The translations under genes and the position numbers were made by a program. Shown piece after piece: positions 44,966-54,622 of a stretch of 64,000 nt of DNA (positions are counted from its first letter, which is position 1; each line of letters starts with the position of its first letter). Below the pieces are notes generated by a model that was not told where the DNA came from, did not search any database, and saw only the letters and a program-made list of their open reading frames with translations. The stretch comes from Pseudomonas sp. R5-89-07 (GTDB lineage: Bacteria > Pseudomonadota > Gammaproteobacteria > Pseudomonadales > Pseudomonadaceae): NCBI RefSeq assembly GCF_003851685.1, contig NZ_CP027727.1, positions 310,001 through 374,000 of the forward strand, written 5' to 3'.

Positions 44966-46024
44966 ATGCAAGCTGAAATTTTGTGGTCTGCTATTTTGGT
45001 GCCGCCCCTACTTGTTGTCGCCATTATCATGCTGACGATCGTCATAAAGGCAGATAAAGCCCCATCGCTTCTAGCGATGGTTACATTGAACTCGAAAAAG
45101 AGCCTTGCCCATCAGCCGTTGCTCTGGTTTAGTCTTTGCTTACCCTTGACCTATTTTTTTTCCTTTGGCGCTATCGTTTGGGGGCAGTCCAGTTTGGATC
45201 TTAGTGATAAGGGCTTTGAAAATTTTATAAAAATAAGTACCTTGCCATTGCTTCTACTATCTCTGGCGCTACCGTTTTCTCTGTTGATATGGCGGTTTCA
45301 CGCAACTTTACAGACGGCGGAACAAATCGAGCTTGCCTCATATAAAAACAATATTGATACTTACTACGCGCACAAGAAGGCGCTGATTGATCATTTCGGC
45401 GGGATTCCTGCGCGTACGTATGAAGGTGGCATTAAAGCGGTGTTTGCATTGCATCCTAGGCTACATTTGAAGTTTTTCAAAAATACACCTCCGAATGAAG
45501 GCATTCCGGATATCAATACTGCGTGTTTTGAAGAAGCAATCAATTTTCTTAGGACTGCTCGGCATGCCATATATGTAACGCTGACCACTGCGGATGATGT
45601 CGAGCGCGTTCAGAATTACATAGTTGCCTGCGATGAAGTCTATCAATTAGGCAGTCTTTTGGTGCTTGAGCCCATTTTTGGGCCGCTATATGAGAAGAGT
45701 TTAAAGCGAAAGTATCCGGACTGTATAAAAACATCCGAAGATGGACGTAAGGCATTTACGCCGTTGGGTGATAATAGCGATGAGTTGATAGGCGCTTACC
45801 GCTATTGCCGATCATTCATGAGACTTTTGTGTGAGTTCGCAGGCTATGACATTAAGTTTTTCGAACGCGATGGACGGTACGACTTTGTCGACAAAGGTCG
45901 GCACTACCTCCCTAAATCGAAAGAACGTAGAGTTGAAGCCATCCTATCCGTACTGGAGCCATACATTTATAACAGCGATGCCTTTGTTGAGACCCCATCA
46001 GTGGAACAACCGACTAAAGCCTGA
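44966..46024 (+). CDS. Unrecognised membrane-anchored protein
   Basis: The 352-residue product has three hydrophobic segments in its first 120 residues (about 9-29, 52-74, 92-112). A cytoplasmic domain of about 230 residues follows with many charged and aromatic residues. No known motif or catalytic signature is visible. Base composition is lower in GC than the core genes, and it sits beside an Mrr-like endonuclease and IS fragments, so an accessory or defence role is possible but not shown. Confidence 0.6.
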   Translation: MQAEILWSAILVPPLLVVAIIMLTIVIKADKAPSLLAMVTLNSKKSLAHQPLLWFSLCLPLTYFFSFGAIVWGQSSLDLSDKGFENFIKISTLPLLLLSLALPFSLLIWRFHATLQTAEQIELASYKNNIDTYYAHKKALIDHFGGIPARTYEGGIKAVFALHPRLHLKFFKNTPPNEGIPDINTACFEEAINFLRTARHAIYVTLTTADDVERVQNYIVACDEVYQLGSLLVLEPIFGPLYEKSLKRKYPDCIKTSEDGRKAFTPLGDNSDELIGAYRYCRSFMRLLCEFAGYDIKFFERDGRYDFVDKGRHYLPKSKERRVEAILSVLEPYIYNSDAFVETPSVEQPTKA

Positions 46025-46427: not shown

Positions 46428-47411
46428 TCATTGTTGCAGACCTTTATAAGCTTTTCCTATTCGTAGCAGGAGGGCTTGGACATCGTTACCAAATAAAACT
46501 GTGATGCCGTCTTGGTTTTCGGCGAGGTGTCGGTTCTGCTCCGCATGAGCTTTGGTCACGATCAAGATCTTGTCGATTAAACGAACTTTCGGATCGTCAC
46601 TCCAGTAAGCATCGGCCTTGTTGAGTTGTTTAAGCGGTGCTTCTGAGACTTTGCCGATGTAGTGCTTTACTTGAATAGCGATGAGGTAACTGTAATCGGT
46701 CAGTCCTGGGATCGTGATGGAGATATCGGTACCGTGATGCACTTCTTCAGGGCCACCGCGACGTGTCACTTTGCAAGGGGTAGGGTACAGGCGCTTGAGT
46801 CCTTCAACCAAGGCAAACTCCCATTCCGCGTTGGAGAAGCCGTTGGCAATCTTTTCGTATAGCGAGGTGGTGAATTTTTGCTCATCAAAGGCGGCTGCAA
46901 AGCTATCTTGGACCGTATCGGCAAAGCGATCGGTAAAGCTTTGGCTGCTGCGCATGGCGTTGTCATCTAAAGCAATTAGCACTTCAATTTCTTTGGCGCA
47001 GGCGTCTAGGCTCCAGAACCTTGATCTAGAACCCAGTGCAGCACGGATCTTGCCAGGCACATTGGCATTCTTGCGGGTGAACTGTTTGAGTTGTTTGACC
47101 GGGAAGCTGTGGCCATAGTCCTTGAACACCGGATCAGGCGCATAGGAATAGCCAAGGTTGAAGTCTTCCGTTGCTTCCACGAGGGCCACCTCATGGTGGT
47201 TGGGCAGCCTTGGGACCAGAAGGATGTCGCCCTTTTTCACCTTGTTGTAGATTGGCAGGTTGCGTTTAGCGCCACCGCTAAGGTCCGGGTGAGTCAGCTC
47301 CTGATCTGGAGTTTCCCCCCAGCCTTGGTGGAGCCGTCCTTTCTCTAATTTTTGCCGGAAAAACGCAATATTGCGTTTGTCGATGCGGTAACCCCAGTAA
47401 TTCCTTGACAT
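46428..47411 (-). CDS. Mrr-like PD-(D/E)XK restriction endonuclease
   Basis: From ATG 47411 the product is 327 residues. The C-terminal half has the Mrr_cat pattern: a Glu in NAEWEFALVEGLKRLYP, Asp229 in HHGTDISI, and Q-V-K (residues 247-249) in YLIAIQVKHYIGKV. The N-terminal half (YWGYRIDKRNIAFFRQKLEK, KKGDILLVPRLPNHHEVALV) looks like a small beta-rich reader domain, possibly EVE- or PUA-like. A reader joined to Mrr_cat suggests cleavage of modified phage DNA. No methylase gene is adjacent, which fits a type IV-like enzyme. Confidence 0.65.
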   Translation of the reverse strand: MSRNYWGYRIDKRNIAFFRQKLEKGRLHQGWGETPDQELTHPDLSGGAKRNLPIYNKVKKGDILLVPRLPNHHEVALVEATEDFNLGYSYAPDPVFKDYGHSFPVKQLKQFTRKNANVPGKIRAALGSRSRFWSLDACAKEIEVLIALDDNAMRSSQSFTDRFADTVQDSFAAAFDEQKFTTSLYEKIANGFSNAEWEFALVEGLKRLYPTPCKVTRRGGPEEVHHGTDISITIPGLTDYSYLIAIQVKHYIGKVSEAPLKQLNKADAYWSDDPKVRLIDKILIVTKAHAEQNRHLAENQDGITVLFGNDVQALLLRIGKAYKGLQQ

Positions 47412-47867
47412 CAATTTCTTCCAAGTTAATCAGTAGTTGACCATGATTTTCGGCAACAACACCATAATAATGGCATTTGATTGATCTTAGGTTTCGAATT
47501 GCACAATTATCCCTTCCACATGGCACAAGAGGAATTGAGTTAAGGCCATGATTTTTTCACCCTGAGCAAAAGGGGGCGGTTTTATTTTTCCTTAGATCCA
47601 TCACCCCATGATGATCTGATAGAAAATGAATGCGTTCCCTTTTACTGACGTCTATATTAAAACGTTAATCATGAGGTGAGTAAGCAAAGGTCAGTGTTGA
47701 AGTTCTTTAAGCGCTCAATTAACGTTGGCTGCCCCATCTTTGTGAGCGTTCGAGATCGGAGCTCGATTTTATATTCCTCATGGCGAAAAGGGGACTGATT
47801 TATTTTTTCTCTCTGTCCCGTCCTGAATAAGATTTACACCTTCTGATCTGTTTTTCAGGAGGACGTA
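47412..47867. other. Gap with AT-rich, IS-end-like sequence
   Basis: The region between the Mrr-like gene and the IS3 fragment holds two similar patches, AGGGGGCGGTTTTATTTTTC near 47572 and AAAGGGGACTGATTTATTTT near 47787. They resemble ends of mobile elements. No gene is supported. Confidence 0.35.
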
Positions 47868-48078: not shown

Positions 48079-50547
48079 CTATTGGATGTCTATGTATTTT
48101 CTTATTTCAAACTGAACAAGGTCATCTTGCGAGTTTACATAGTCAGCGAATTCGCTATTGAATCTAACCTCTCCAAGCTCACTTATTGAAATATTGCCTG
48201 TCTGCTTGTCACGCTCCAATTTATTAACCAAAGACCCACTAATGCCCATCTTGACGAATTCGGCATTTATTTTTTTGTTAGTTCCGTAAATATGTAGATT
48301 GTACTCGTTCTCAGTAAGTAGTCTCAAGTCATGAAGGGCTTTCACGTATTCATTGAGTCTATAAGAGACAAAGTCACTTTCTATCTTAATTTTCACTAGC
48401 GCCAAGTTTACTAACTCTTTGTCTGTTTTTTTTGATAGATCTATGTATACATTGCTGCCATGTACGCCGTCGGCCCTGTTTTTGGCTATCTCGCCATAGG
48501 AACTTCCAATGAAAAATTCTTTTCCACTATCGGTAAGTTTAATGCTGTGGAAATACTTCACTGTGTCTGATAAGTGATCTTTAAGATTTAGGCGATGGAG
48601 GTTTCTTGTGAAAAGTTTGTAGAAATCTCTAGCTTTTTGGTGCTGAAGGCGAAGAAACGCGGCATCTGAAATCTGATTTTCAAGAGACTTGATAAAATAT
48701 AAATACACTTTGTCAATTACGTCGGATGTTATCCATTCCTCACTTGAGGAAATTGTACCTAAGCGCCTTTCAAGTAAGCCAAAGACTCCCTCAGGATTAT
48801 AGTACACAGAAGAAATTCCTGACTCCATAAGCGTGTGCTTTACTTTGCTAGACTCGTCCCCATCACTGTGTATCAAGAAATCCTCTTTGCTCTGGATGTA
48901 TTCAAATTGATTAACTTTCCTCTCTAGAGTCTCTATACCATCCTGATCTATATTTTCGCGCGCTATGTCTAAATTTTTAATGACCTGGCTCAAGTCGAAA
49001 TTCAGAAGTAGAGGGTTTTCTATGTTATCTTTAAATATTCCATTTTTTAGAAGTCTTATTTTATTTTCCATCTTTCCACCCTTCCGATTAAACTGGTCTG
49101 AGTTTACAAAGTGTATAGGTGGAAGAAGTTTGTCGAGAGATTTTCTGCTGTCATCGAACACATCGTTAAGTCTATTTACCCTGCCAATCAAGTTGGTTAA
49201 TGATTTTCCATCCAGATCGTAAGTGTTTAGAATAAATAGGTTGTCGATCGGCAGGTTAACTCCCTCTAGAATTACTGAGTTCGCAATCAGGTATTTTAGT
49301 TCTTTGGTTTGTGCAAACTTGTGTTCCAAATATTCTTTTACTAAGTCCGGGAGCTTTCCATGCAAATAAATCATCCCCTTTTTTATATGCTCTACGCAAT
49401 AGAAGTCACTGTGAACGTTGTTTGAAATGGTCTGAGATAAATCGCCGAGCACACTTGAGCTAATATATGGTAGCTCCTTGCTTATAAGCATGGAAAGCTC
49501 TTCAACTTTCTTCGGTGCTCTGAGGTATAGGAAGTTCTTCTCTTTCTTATTTTTTATTATGTAGTCTACGAAACTCGACTCATTCCCTAAGCGATAAAAC
49601 TCATTCATGAATCTATTATAGGTGTGCTGTTCTCCATTGGATTTAAATTCATAGATTTCTGGTTCTTTAATATTGCTTGCTATGCGCCGTTCAAAAAATC
49701 TCTGATTTTCATCAGTTTTAAGATTTTCTGTTTCAGATACCAAAGGTGATAAATAATAGTTTGTCGACTCCGGATTTCTAAGTCTATTCCTACGTATTAG
49801 CCTTGTTAGCAGAATACTTCTTGCATCCATTTCAAATAAGTTCTGGGCTTCATCAATTATCAGAAGTTCAAAAGATATATCTTTGTTTTTTAAGAGCCTG
49901 AGAGCACGCTCTTGAGTGAATATGGAAATAAAATCTCCTGCCCCATCATACATTTCATCATGAAATATAATGTGGCGGAGCGGGAAATTAGCTTTGATTA
50001 ACTTGTAAGTTTGTGTAAGGAGTGATTTGGTTGGTACGATGATTGCGGTTTTCTTGGGATTTTTTGCTTTTATTATATCTATAATTAATGTGCTTTTTCC
50101 AAAAGAGGTCGGCGCGATGTAACAGTTCTCCTTGCTACCGCTATTAATTATTTGCTCTCGATATTTTTTTTGCTCGTAAGTTTCAGTTATATGTTTGTTT
50201 AGAAATTTTTCTAACTGGTACTCTAAAGTGAAGTTTGTGCTTGTTGAACTCTCGGTTAATTTATTTTTTGATATGTACTGCGCTACCGGGTAGATCCCAA
50301 AATTTGAACTTGCATCTAGTAGTGGTTGATAATAGTTGTTATTGATTGCGCACTTTAAGGTTATGTAGTATGCAATCTCAAAGTAGGGGGATCTTCTCTT
50401 GTCGCCACTGTATTCGTTAAAAAATACAATTGCACAGCTTAGGATGAACTCCAGCTCTCTATTATCAAGCTGAATATTTAGAGAGGTCTTCCTCATAACT
50501 TCTGAAAATAATTTATTGCTTTTGAGCCAAGTCAGGCTAATTGCCAT
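48079..50547 (-). CDS. SF2 helicase of a Hachiman-like defence pair (HamB-like)
   Basis: From ATG 50547, one base after the upstream stop and behind GGAGAAG, the product is 822 residues. The N-terminal 130 residues are helical. Helicase motifs are Walker A IAPTSFGKSTL (Lys151), DEAQ at residues 232-235 (LLIIDEAQNLF), motif V VILEGVNLP, and motif VI LIGRVNRLN (455-459). The last 350 residues match nothing I recognise. The gene is strikingly AT-rich. With the PD-(D/E)XK gene just upstream it fits HamB of Hachiman; AbpB-type helicases are the alternative. Confidence 0.68.
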   Translation of the reverse strand: MAISLTWLKSNKLFSEVMRKTSLNIQLDNRELEFILSCAIVFFNEYSGDKRRSPYFEIAYYITLKCAINNNYYQPLLDASSNFGIYPVAQYISKNKLTESSTSTNFTLEYQLEKFLNKHITETYEQKKYREQIINSGSKENCYIAPTSFGKSTLIIDIIKAKNPKKTAIIVPTKSLLTQTYKLIKANFPLRHIIFHDEMYDGAGDFISIFTQERALRLLKNKDISFELLIIDEAQNLFEMDARSILLTRLIRRNRLRNPESTNYYLSPLVSETENLKTDENQRFFERRIASNIKEPEIYEFKSNGEQHTYNRFMNEFYRLGNESSFVDYIIKNKKEKNFLYLRAPKKVEELSMLISKELPYISSSVLGDLSQTISNNVHSDFYCVEHIKKGMIYLHGKLPDLVKEYLEHKFAQTKELKYLIANSVILEGVNLPIDNLFILNTYDLDGKSLTNLIGRVNRLNDVFDDSRKSLDKLLPPIHFVNSDQFNRKGGKMENKIRLLKNGIFKDNIENPLLLNFDLSQVIKNLDIARENIDQDGIETLERKVNQFEYIQSKEDFLIHSDGDESSKVKHTLMESGISSVYYNPEGVFGLLERRLGTISSSEEWITSDVIDKVYLYFIKSLENQISDAAFLRLQHQKARDFYKLFTRNLHRLNLKDHLSDTVKYFHSIKLTDSGKEFFIGSSYGEIAKNRADGVHGSNVYIDLSKKTDKELVNLALVKIKIESDFVSYRLNEYVKALHDLRLLTENEYNLHIYGTNKKINAEFVKMGISGSLVNKLERDKQTGNISISELGEVRFNSEFADYVNSQDDLVQFEIRKYIDIQ

Positions 50548-50548
50548 T

Positions 50549-51307
50549 TTACTTCTCCAGGTATTCAACAAAGCTATTTAGGCTAGATTTTGTCAAGCAC
50601 ATAGCTTTAATCGTTTTTCCGTCAAAGCTTAATACGAAGCTGTTATCATTTAAGATTTCAGTACTTGCTGTTGAGTCCCACGCGCCATTTAGGAATATCG
50701 TTGAACATGTGATGATATTGAATTCGGTTATCTTGTTAAAGGTTCCTTGGTCAAACATATCCTGAAGATTTTTAATCTTCTTTCTGATTGATTTTTCCGT
50801 TCCTACATCTATATGGGAGGCATGGTTGTAGGCATTCTTCCATGGGTTGTTTTTACCTTTTTCACTTTTTCCAGAAACATACTTTTCTAAATCGGAGTAG
50901 GCGTGTTTAAGCTTATCTTTGTGGCTGATTCTTTTACTGGATATAGAGCCGGATTTACTTTCAAGTAGATAGGTTTCAGCATCTTTAGAGAAAAAACCAT
51001 CAAACCCTTTTTTTATTGATCCTTCTTCTAGATTAAAGAATAGGAATTCCTGTTTGTAACCAATCATTCTTAAGTATAAATGAGCAAAAAGCTCCGCGGC
51101 TGCTCCCATTCGAGTATTGGTATCTTTATCTTCCAGAAATTTTCTCAGCCTTATTTTAACAAGGTCTAGCTCGCTATCAGAGCTGCCTTCACATATCGAT
51201 ACCAAAAAATCATCAAGATATTTAGTTATTTTGGTATCTAACGATTCTATATTGATGACATGTAGTTCGTGTGTGGAAGATATTAGCTTTATTTCAACTG
51301 GAAGCAT
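50549..51307 (-). CDS. PD-(D/E)XK nuclease of a Hachiman-like defence pair (HamA-like, DUF1837-like)
   Basis: From ATG 51307 the product is 252 residues. A longer start at 51373 would lie in NERD-gene sequence and is rejected. Candidate catalytic residues are Glu72 in GAAAELFAHLYLR, Asp103 in IKKGFDGFFS, and E-x-K at 116-118 in LLESKSGS. This order (E, then K-G-F-D, then E-x-K) is the DUF1837/HamA pattern. In Hachiman, HamA cuts DNA when HamB senses loss of genome integrity. The helicase gene follows with one base between stop and start, so the two are coupled. Confidence 0.65.
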   Translation of the reverse strand: MLPVEIKLISSTHELHVINIESLDTKITKYLDDFLVSICEGSSDSELDLVKIRLRKFLEDKDTNTRMGAAAELFAHLYLRMIGYKQEFLFFNLEEGSIKKGFDGFFSKDAETYLLESKSGSISSKRISHKDKLKHAYSDLEKYVSGKSEKGKNNPWKNAYNHASHIDVGTEKSIRKKIKNLQDMFDQGTFNKITEFNIITCSTIFLNGAWDSTASTEILNDNSFVLSFDGKTIKAMCLTKSSLNSFVEYLEK

Positions 51308-51375
51308 TTTTATAGTCCAGGTTTTTTCGCTTGGTAATAGGGGGACGCTGCCATGGCCAGACCTCTTCAACAAAT

Positions 51376-51590
51376 CGGTGGATCTGCGTCGTGCCGCCTA
51401 ACGTATTTAGAGTGAGATTGTGCAGCTGGAGATAGATGTGCTTGCCCGCCTTCCGGGCGAGGAGTCGCACCGAAAGTTCACCGTGATAGCCTTGGCCTAG
51501 CTGCCGCTTGAGCCGAGCGAGAAAAAATGCGCCCGGAAAAATCCAGTTCGGTATGCCCGAGATCTGGGCGATGATAGGGGTGAAGTCCAT
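51376..51590 (-). pseudogene. Truncated NERD-domain gene
   Basis: ATG 51590 opens MDFTPIIAQISGIPNWIFPG, then a basic segment GYHGELSVRLLARKAGKHIY and LHNLTLNTLGGTTQI, matching the first part of Pseudomonas NERD (nuclease-related) proteins. Homology stops after about 70 residues, just where the AT-rich HamA-like gene begins. The expected VVETKNMKGW part is missing. Insertion of the defence module probably removed it. Confidence 0.6.
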
Positions 51591-51938
51591 TTTGCAACCT
51601 TTCCAGAAATCCTTATCCACCCGCATCTTACCGAAATTTCGAGTAATGGCACGTTAGTATTACTCGATGGTGAGAAGGTGTGTGGTCGCGTTTAGATTTA
51701 GCCTGACGCAAGGCCTGTGCCATTGATCTGATACTGGGTGCAACGTGCAACACCAAAGTAATTCAGCTCCATAAGGTCGCTCAGATGGCCAATAGCAGTA
51801 GAAGGGCGCATGTACTGGGCGGCCCTAATGCGTTCCTCAAGCCGCGCTCACGGCCATCAAGCTGGCTGCCGGGTCTTCCGGTCTACAGGACCTAGCATCG
51901 TGTTCGATTAAACCATATAGGTAAGCGGCGTAATCCAA
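51591..51938. other. Gene-free stretch between island fragments
   Basis: About 350 bp contain no frame with a normal composition or start signal. The stretch probably holds degraded mobile-element sequence. Confidence 0.3.
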
Positions 51939-53053: not shown

Positions 53054-54382
53054 TTACCCACGTTTGGATGCGCCACGGCTATTTTGTAGGGCGGTAATGT
53101 TGTCGCCGACCGGATGAGCGAATTCGTGGGGCGTCACATGCCCATGGCGGTTGGCGTCGATGTAGTTGCTCCACCACGCCATGATTAGCCTACGCTGTTC
53201 GAGGAATTCAGCCTTGTGGATATACGCGGCGCGCACACGGTTGCGTTCCTTGTGGCTCATTTGTCTTTCGATGGCTGCGTCGGTCCATAACCCGGACTCC
53301 AGGAGGGCGCTACAGGCCATGGTCCTGAAGCCGTGGCCGCATACGTCCTTGCTGGTGTCATAGCCGACGTTGCGGAGCATGGTGTTCACCGTGTTCTCGG
53401 ACATGGGCTTCCAATACTTGTGGTCGCCCGGTAGCACCAACTCTGAAAAGCGACTCAGGCTGCGCAGGCGCTCCAGTATTTCGATGACCTGCGGCGATAG
53501 CGGAACCATTTGAATGTCGCCGTTCATCTTGGTCCCGCGTGTGGAGTTGCGTACCCCTTCAATCGGTGCGCGTGTATCGGGGATTTCCCACATGGCGCGT
53601 TGGAGGTCGAACTCACTCCATCGAGCGAAGCGCAGTTCGCTGGAGCGGACGAATACATGCAACGTCAGCAGGACGGCGAGGCGCGTCAGCTCGCGGCCGT
53701 TGTAGTTGTCGATACGGTGTAGCAGTTCGGGTAGGCGGTTGAGGGAGAGGGCCGGGCGATGGACTGTGCGCGGCGCGTGAATCGAGCCTGCCAGATCCAG
53801 TGCAGGATTCAGGGTGATCTGCCGAGCCCTTTTGGCCCCGCGCATGATGGTGGATAAGTAGTTCTGTACCCTTAACGCCACATCCATAGTGCCGCGTTCC
53901 TTGATGCGCTGGGTGATCTCTAGCAGGTCGTGGGTATCGAGCTCGGCAATGGGCCGTTGGCCGATCTGCGGGAAGACGTGGGTGCGCAGTCGGCTCATTA
54001 CGGTTTTTGCGTGGCCTTCGGTCCAGCGACGGGACATATCGGCGTGCCACTCCAGAGCAACGGTTTCGAAAAGCAGTGCCGCCCGCTGGGCTACGATCTT
54101 GGCCTTCTTCTTTTCTTCCATTGGGTCGAGATTGTCGAGCAGCAATGCCTTGGCCTCGTCTCGCTTACGCCGTGCGACGGAAAGGGTAACGATGGGGTAA
54201 TTGCCGATGATGAGCGTACCTTCCTTGCCGCTGGGCTTGGTGTACTTCAAGCGCCAGGTCTTCACGCCATTGGGTTTGACGAAAAGGTACATGCCGCCGC
54301 CGTCGAACAGTTTGTAGGCGCGTTCGCGGGTTTTGGCCGTGCGGCATTGCAGGTCGCTGAGGGGGATCGCTAGACGTGGCAT
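53054..54382 (-). CDS. P4-type tyrosine integrase
   Basis: From ATG 54382 the product is 442 residues (MPRLAIPLSDLQCRTAKTRE). The N-terminal DUF4102 arm-binding domain includes LFDGGGMYLFVKPNGVKTWR. Catalytic residues are Arg246 in FVRSSELRFARW, His350 and Arg353 in GHGFRTM, His377 in MSHKERN, and Tyr387 in AAYIHKAEF. All are present, so it looks active. It lies directly downstream of the 3' end of tRNA-Thr, the usual place for an island integrase that uses the tRNA 3' end as its site. Confidence 0.9.
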   Translation of the reverse strand: MPRLAIPLSDLQCRTAKTRERAYKLFDGGGMYLFVKPNGVKTWRLKYTKPSGKEGTLIIGNYPIVTLSVARRKRDEAKALLLDNLDPMEEKKKAKIVAQRAALLFETVALEWHADMSRRWTEGHAKTVMSRLRTHVFPQIGQRPIAELDTHDLLEITQRIKERGTMDVALRVQNYLSTIMRGAKRARQITLNPALDLAGSIHAPRTVHRPALSLNRLPELLHRIDNYNGRELTRLAVLLTLHVFVRSSELRFARWSEFDLQRAMWEIPDTRAPIEGVRNSTRGTKMNGDIQMVPLSPQVIEILERLRSLSRFSELVLPGDHKYWKPMSENTVNTMLRNVGYDTSKDVCGHGFRTMACSALLESGLWTDAAIERQMSHKERNRVRAAYIHKAEFLEQRRLIMAWWSNYIDANRHGHVTPHEFAHPVGDNITALQNSRGASKRG

Positions 54383-54546
54383 AGGGGTACGCGCTCCTGA
54401 CCGGGAGATCGCAGTACCCCTAACATACCCTCGGGGAAGGGGGATTTTGTTGGATCCCGACAGAGGGTCCTGGAACGAAAAAACCCGCCAAAGGGCGGGT
54501 TTTCGGGGCTTCCAGAGCACTCGGTGGAATGCAATGGAGCCTAATG

Positions 54547-54622
<76 letters not shown>

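Follow-up and report, generated by a model that had tools for sequence, protein, structure and literature searches.

Identity of the gene pair

Do the two AT-rich genes found side by side in the genome of Pseudomonas sp. R5-89-07 code for an antiphage defence system, and if so for which one? We have analyzed positions 310,001 to 374,000 of contig NZ_CP027727.1 (assembly GCF_003851685.1), a stretch of 64,000 nucleotides that we call the window and whose own numbering is used throughout. A preliminary description of the same DNA had proposed the HamA-HamB pair of Hachiman, a DNA-integrity-sensing antiphage system, either as a divergent subtype or as a relative of AbpAB. Our analysis indicates that the best explanation is a HamAB (Hachiman) system, predicted to act in defence and belonging to a deep divergent lineage, with a probability of about 0.9. 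The core of this reading is a HamA-fold nuclease encoded 1 base upstream of a HamB-type Ski2 helicase, in a combination that recurs across phyla and that here occupies AT-rich DNA, with an integrase and a tRNA-Thr gene alongside. The two genes are the following:

50549..51307, minus strand: hamA-like gene, 252 amino acids (aa), ATG at 51307 and TAA ending at 50549; effector nuclease of the PD-(D/E)XK type from a divergent clade of HamA, function assigned by homology
48079..50547, minus strand: hamB-like gene, 822 aa, ATG at 50547; helicase of superfamily 2 (SF2), Ski2-type, with an N-terminal helical region and HamB-type C-terminal domains

The coordinates of this coupled pair, described before from the sequence, are exact to the base. 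Both genes lie on the minus strand with hamB downstream, with a single base lying between the stop of hamA and the start of hamB. The GC content between 48 and 51 kilobases (kb) is 36-38% (0.379, 0.358 and 0.355), against 0.53-0.66 elsewhere in the window (outside about 44-52 kb). Longer open reading frames (ORFs) starting at TTG (274 and 830 aa) were considered and rejected, since 32 of 39 aligned HamA relatives lack the residues that precede the internal start.

The nuclease

The catalytic residues proposed earlier for the small protein (Glu72, Asp103, Glu116 and Lys118) are all present and are conserved in the family. The counts below refer to 54 sequences, namely the window and 53 loci from named genomes.

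50999..51001, minus strand: codon of Asp103, the residue of the D-ExK site that binds metal, conserved in 54/54
50954..50962, minus strand: codons of Glu116-Ser117-Lys118, the ExK of the active site (Glu in 54/54, Lys in 53/54)
51092..51094, minus strand: codon of Glu72, an acidic residue carried by the helix that precedes the site (54/54; helix 63-81 in the model)
50999..51034, minus strand: codons 92-103, for the loop NLEExSIKKGFD that leads up to the catalytic Asp, a nearly invariant signature of the clade

The sole sequence without Lys118 (L073) comes from a gene broken just after Glu116. To judge from these alignments, the D-ExK catalytic motif of HamA is intact. The loop columns were invariant in two alignments, except for Leu93, which was only nearly invariant in one of them. 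The same loop is the least confident part of the predicted HamA model (pLDDT, the per-residue confidence, of about 55 for residues 91-100), and the nearly invariant NLEExSIKKGFDG beside the catalytic Asp may become ordered only on HamB or DNA. When compared with solved chains, the predicted model matched the HamA nuclease fold, as the preliminary description had anticipated, at about 12-15% identity to the Hachiman of E. coli ECOR31. The protein is a single domain, and the matches to the HamA and AbpA folds covered residues 1-252 of the model. At the level of sequence, the HamA protein had no relative among the solved chains searched.

The helicase

The larger protein was also confirmed as the 822-residue helicase announced before, with its three motifs in place:

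50092..50115, minus strand: motif I (Walker A) APTSFGKS, residues 145-152, placed by alignment
49843..49854, minus strand: motif II DEAQ, residues 232-235 (DEAH in the other 49/50 aligned)
49171..49185, minus strand: motif VI GRVNR, residues 455-459 (50/50 aligned)

Motifs I, II, V and VI can all be recognized, as expected for an SF2 helicase of the Ski2 type. The protein matched the PADLOC model HamB1 (PDLC00190) with an E value of 1.5e-43. Residues 5-113 are helical in the model, and the alignments with chains 8vx9_B, 8vxy_B and 8zue_B begin at residue 5 while the Hel308 rows listed begin at 112-115, although some Brr2 rows begin at 3-18. Hel308, Pol theta and Brr2 folds were among the best structural rows.

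Regarding motif II, DEAHN or DEAHK was found in 119 of the 120 HamB homologues listed, the remaining one (P0239) being a partial protein of 473 aa. Even P0121, which is 97% identical to the window HamB, carries DEAH. DEAQ appears as well in two classical HamB sequences (L010 and L011), and we have not adopted the idea that the Gln marks a dead helicase. P0133 contains these four letters too, though at a place other than motif II.

Conservation as a pair

Homologue searches at E <= 0.001 gave 557 HamA-like proteins and at least 1556 HamB-like ones (7995 candidates scored), so numerous that the family resemblance is not, at the level of sequence, a matter of chance. The 53 HamA loci belong to bacterial genomes that include Pseudomonadota, Bacillota, Bacteroidota, Campylobacterota and Melainabacteria. 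The HamB match adjoins HamA on the same strand in 51 of them, which is the two-gene order of Hachiman. HamB begins about 2-41 bases past the extrapolated HamA end in 50 loci, and the other one (L074) is a fusion. The two loci without HamB are located at contig ends, L064 ending 141 bases past HamA and L073, with its broken hamA, 119 bases past the match. Hachiman identity, as originally proposed, is thus supported by the HamA fold match, the HamB model match, the gene order and the conservation of the pair.

Within Pseudomonas, a survey of 398 genomes found a close copy in 3 (this one included) and a distant match in 14 more; 9 of these 14 were fetched and HamB adjoined HamA in all 9. A tblastn search of phage and plasmid collections with HamA gave no match at E 1e-5.

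Some copies are damaged. L025 and L071 change frame within hamB, L067 has a stop codon in HamA, and in a Helicobacteraceae metagenome-assembled genome (L031:8674-9971) about 1.3 kb full of stop codons interrupts HamB. In Helicobacter sp. 12S02634-8 (L074:6001-8010), HamA up to the ESK motif continues in frame into HamB at about residue 237; the region in between, from the HamA ExK motif onwards, is lacking, as though by deletion.

Family placement and points against

Profile recognition was uneven. Checking the pair against PADLOC and Pfam profiles, as had been suggested, succeeded for the helicase (HamB1) and failed for the nuclease. This failure and several other results weigh against the identification as Hachiman. 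The window HamA matched no PADLOC HamA model and not PF08878.16. Neither did any of the 40 members of alignment A1, and in alignment A4 only 1 of 50 reached a PADLOC HamA model, weakly (E 0.0016). Precomputed PF08878.17 matches are absent from 67 of the 120 HamA homologues listed, including one that is 96% identical. The hhalign comparison of alignment A2 with small sets of classical HamA or AbpA was not significant, Foldseek alone gave no match of the HamA model to structures at E <= 0.001, and the HamA alignment profile found nothing among solved chains. As to the helicase, the Gln of motif II is private to the window among the 50 aligned HamB. Besides, chains of Brr2, Hel308 and Pol theta equal those of HamB and AbpB by Z score, and the alignments of some Brr2 chains likewise start at residues 3-18, so that HamB cannot be told apart by Z or by the N-terminal span taken alone.

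There is also evidence on the other side. PF08878.16 matched 2 of the 50 clade members in A4, precomputed PF08878.17 is found on 53 of the 120 homologues, and hhalign of A2 against a mixed set of weak PF08878 matches, one A5 member included, reached a probability of 87. Alignment A5 represents a sister lineage that is linked to the window clade (A4 to A5 profile E 1.3e-19) and that matches PF08878.16 in 8/9 and PADLOC HamA models in 9/9. By transitive homology through A5, the window HamA can be assigned to DUF1837/PF08878. We read its miss by PF08878.16 as a limit of that profile, and the lineage appears to be partly captured by newer automatic annotation.

A tree of HamB was also built (42 rows of ORFs picked by hidden Markov model, N-terminal parts only, unrooted). 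In it, the window HamB lineage (17 rows) forms one group with support 100/99, and the sister lineage (9 rows, 100/99) lies closest to it. Between these two lineages taken together and the classical HamB and AbpB sequences runs a branch with support 100/99, whose length across the drawing root is 1.54 plus 0.35 changes per column. A warning of long-branch attraction came with the tree (for L004 and others) and touches the main split too. Because of it, we have relied on the main split alone and have made no use of the order in which classical and AbpB rows branch. Taking all this together, we regard the pair as a deep, under-annotated Hachiman lineage, a variant of a known system.

Alternative explanations

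The alternative that survives best, to which we nevertheless give little weight, is a functionally distinct nuclease-helicase pair that keeps the Hachiman architecture and has another trigger or substrate, such as RNA or one phage protein, instead of monitoring DNA integrity. The long and well-supported branch of the HamB tree speaks for such a pair, as does the clade-specific HamA loop, and Ski2-type helicases act on RNA or DNA according to the sections of PMC12278908 consulted. However, the active site, the gene order and the full-length helicase span have all been kept, and a classical Hachiman occupies the same tRNA site in another genome of the genus (see below).

Slightly less probable still is an AbpAB-type system, in which the HamA-like domain would be a mere scaffold and a separate Cap4-type nuclease would do the cutting. 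Here the preliminary description has to be divided: the divergent lineage stands and the AbpAB relative does not. The fold matches of the small protein did include AbpA, but the 252-aa protein has no N-terminal Cap4 domain, its D-ExK site is intact across the clade while that of the AbpA HamA-like domain is reported as lost (PMC12278908, in the sections consulted), and in the tree the window HamB does not group with AbpB. On these three grounds membership of AbpAB was rejected.

Finally, a DNA repair or recombination pair outside defence, resembling HamAB by chance, would share the helicase fold common to Hel308 and Pol theta, but it is hardly credible given the patchy presence in the genus, the AT-rich surroundings with an integrase and a tRNA alongside, and the different setting of the module in Pseudomonas sp. 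TH15.

Proposed mechanism

For the Hachiman reading, the mechanism can be borrowed from the system of E. coli, as presented in the sections consulted of (Tuck et al., 2024; PMC12278908). By analogy, HamA and HamB would form a 1:1 complex in which HamB restrains HamA while it is bound to intact DNA or scanning it. Phage replication or DNA damage would expose a 3' single-stranded end, and its entry into the helicase would trigger ATP hydrolysis. The RecA2 and N-terminal helical domains would then move, freeing or activating HamA, which would degrade all the DNA in the cell, phage and host alike, so that the cell dies without releasing phage. The parts needed for a mechanism of the E. coli type are found in the window, and the behaviour itself is carried over from the E. 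coli system. More speculatively, the lineage might rank with classical HamAB and AbpAB as the third major form of Hachiman, in which the NLEExSIKKGFDG loop would gate the short HamA and so switch the same DNA-destroying effector in another way. We find this idea possible but doubtful.

Genomic setting

The AT-rich stretch lies next to an integrase and a tRNA gene, and remains of another gene lie upstream of hamA:

53054..54520, minus strand: tyrosine integrase (PF00589/PF22022/PF13356), beside the tRNA; listed as island context and separate from the pair
54547..54622, minus strand: tRNA-Thr(TGT), where the island probably inserted; site and integrase family recur in other genomes of the genus
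51381..51590, minus strand: what is left of the 5' part of a decayed NERD-domain gene, upstream of hamA; the gene is intact in L027

We searched for a direct repeat of the tRNA end marking the far (left) edge of the island and found nothing over 11 bp. The same site carries different cargo elsewhere in the genus. In one genome (G002), an integrase 63% identical at tRNA-Thr is followed by a classical HamA (PF08878.16, E 7.5e-48) and HamB (PADLOC HamB2, E 0) in the same order, the pair being at L107:6937-10383. In another (G006), an integrase 98.6% identical at tRNA-Thr is followed by other genes, including one for a 1063-aa ATPase-phosphoribosyltransferase (PRTase-CE) protein (L108:6094-9285) that matches the PADLOC PRTase_III-A models (best E 2.4e-33). 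The module found in Pseudomonas sp. TH15 matches window positions 48080-51661 at 77%, and the 12.8 kb examined there gave no match to the integrase or tRNA of the window.

The NERD-domain gene, decayed to a 5' remnant in the window and in TH15, has an intact counterpart coding for NERD plus a zinc ribbon directly upstream of hamA in Pseudomonas khazarica (L027:5165-5941). Two more genes are located in the AT-rich stretch. One (46428-47414, minus strand) codes for a 328-aa protein with a weak, below-cut-off match to Mrr_cat (PF04471, E 0.006) and no PADLOC match; from this similarity it is perhaps a stand-alone restriction nuclease. The other (44966-46024, plus strand) codes for a 352-aa protein with hydrophobic N-terminal segments by eye and no family match in three libraries.

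Significance

Surveys that require a match to a HamA model may miss this lineage, though it is present in several phyla, and estimates of how widely Hachiman is distributed would change if it were included. Such a small and distant HamA-HamB pair would also help to establish what the sensing mechanism cannot do without. The tRNA-Thr site, which in three genomes of one genus harbours the window pair, a classical Hachiman and a phosphoribosyltransferase-ATPase gene, is a place to look for more.

Comparison with known systems

The closest lineage is the sister one of the same genus (A5, L098-L106). As in the window, HamB adjoins HamA and the ExK site is kept, with a related signature, FNMEExxIRKGFD. 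Unlike the window lineage, it is known to both PF08878.16 and the PADLOC HamA models, and it forms a separate supported group in the HamB tree.

Compared with the Hachiman of E. coli ECOR31 (PDB 8VX9, 8VXA, 8VXC and 8VXY; PMC12278908), the window proteins are about 12-15% identical. The window HamB has 822 residues versus 1174 in the Hachiman chain 8vx9_B, and the clade has its own NLEExSIKKGFDG loop and escapes the PADLOC HamA models and PF08878.16. The AbpA of E. coli AbpAB (PDB 8ZUE) is, in the portion consulted of (Sasaki et al., 2023; PMC10732053), a 538-aa protein with an N-terminal Cap4 nuclease, and its HamA-like domain has lost the active site, as stated in the corresponding sections of (Tuck et al., 2024; PMC12278908). 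The window protein, in contrast, is one short domain of 252 aa. Since it has no Cap4 extension and its site is intact, it most likely works like HamA and not like AbpA.
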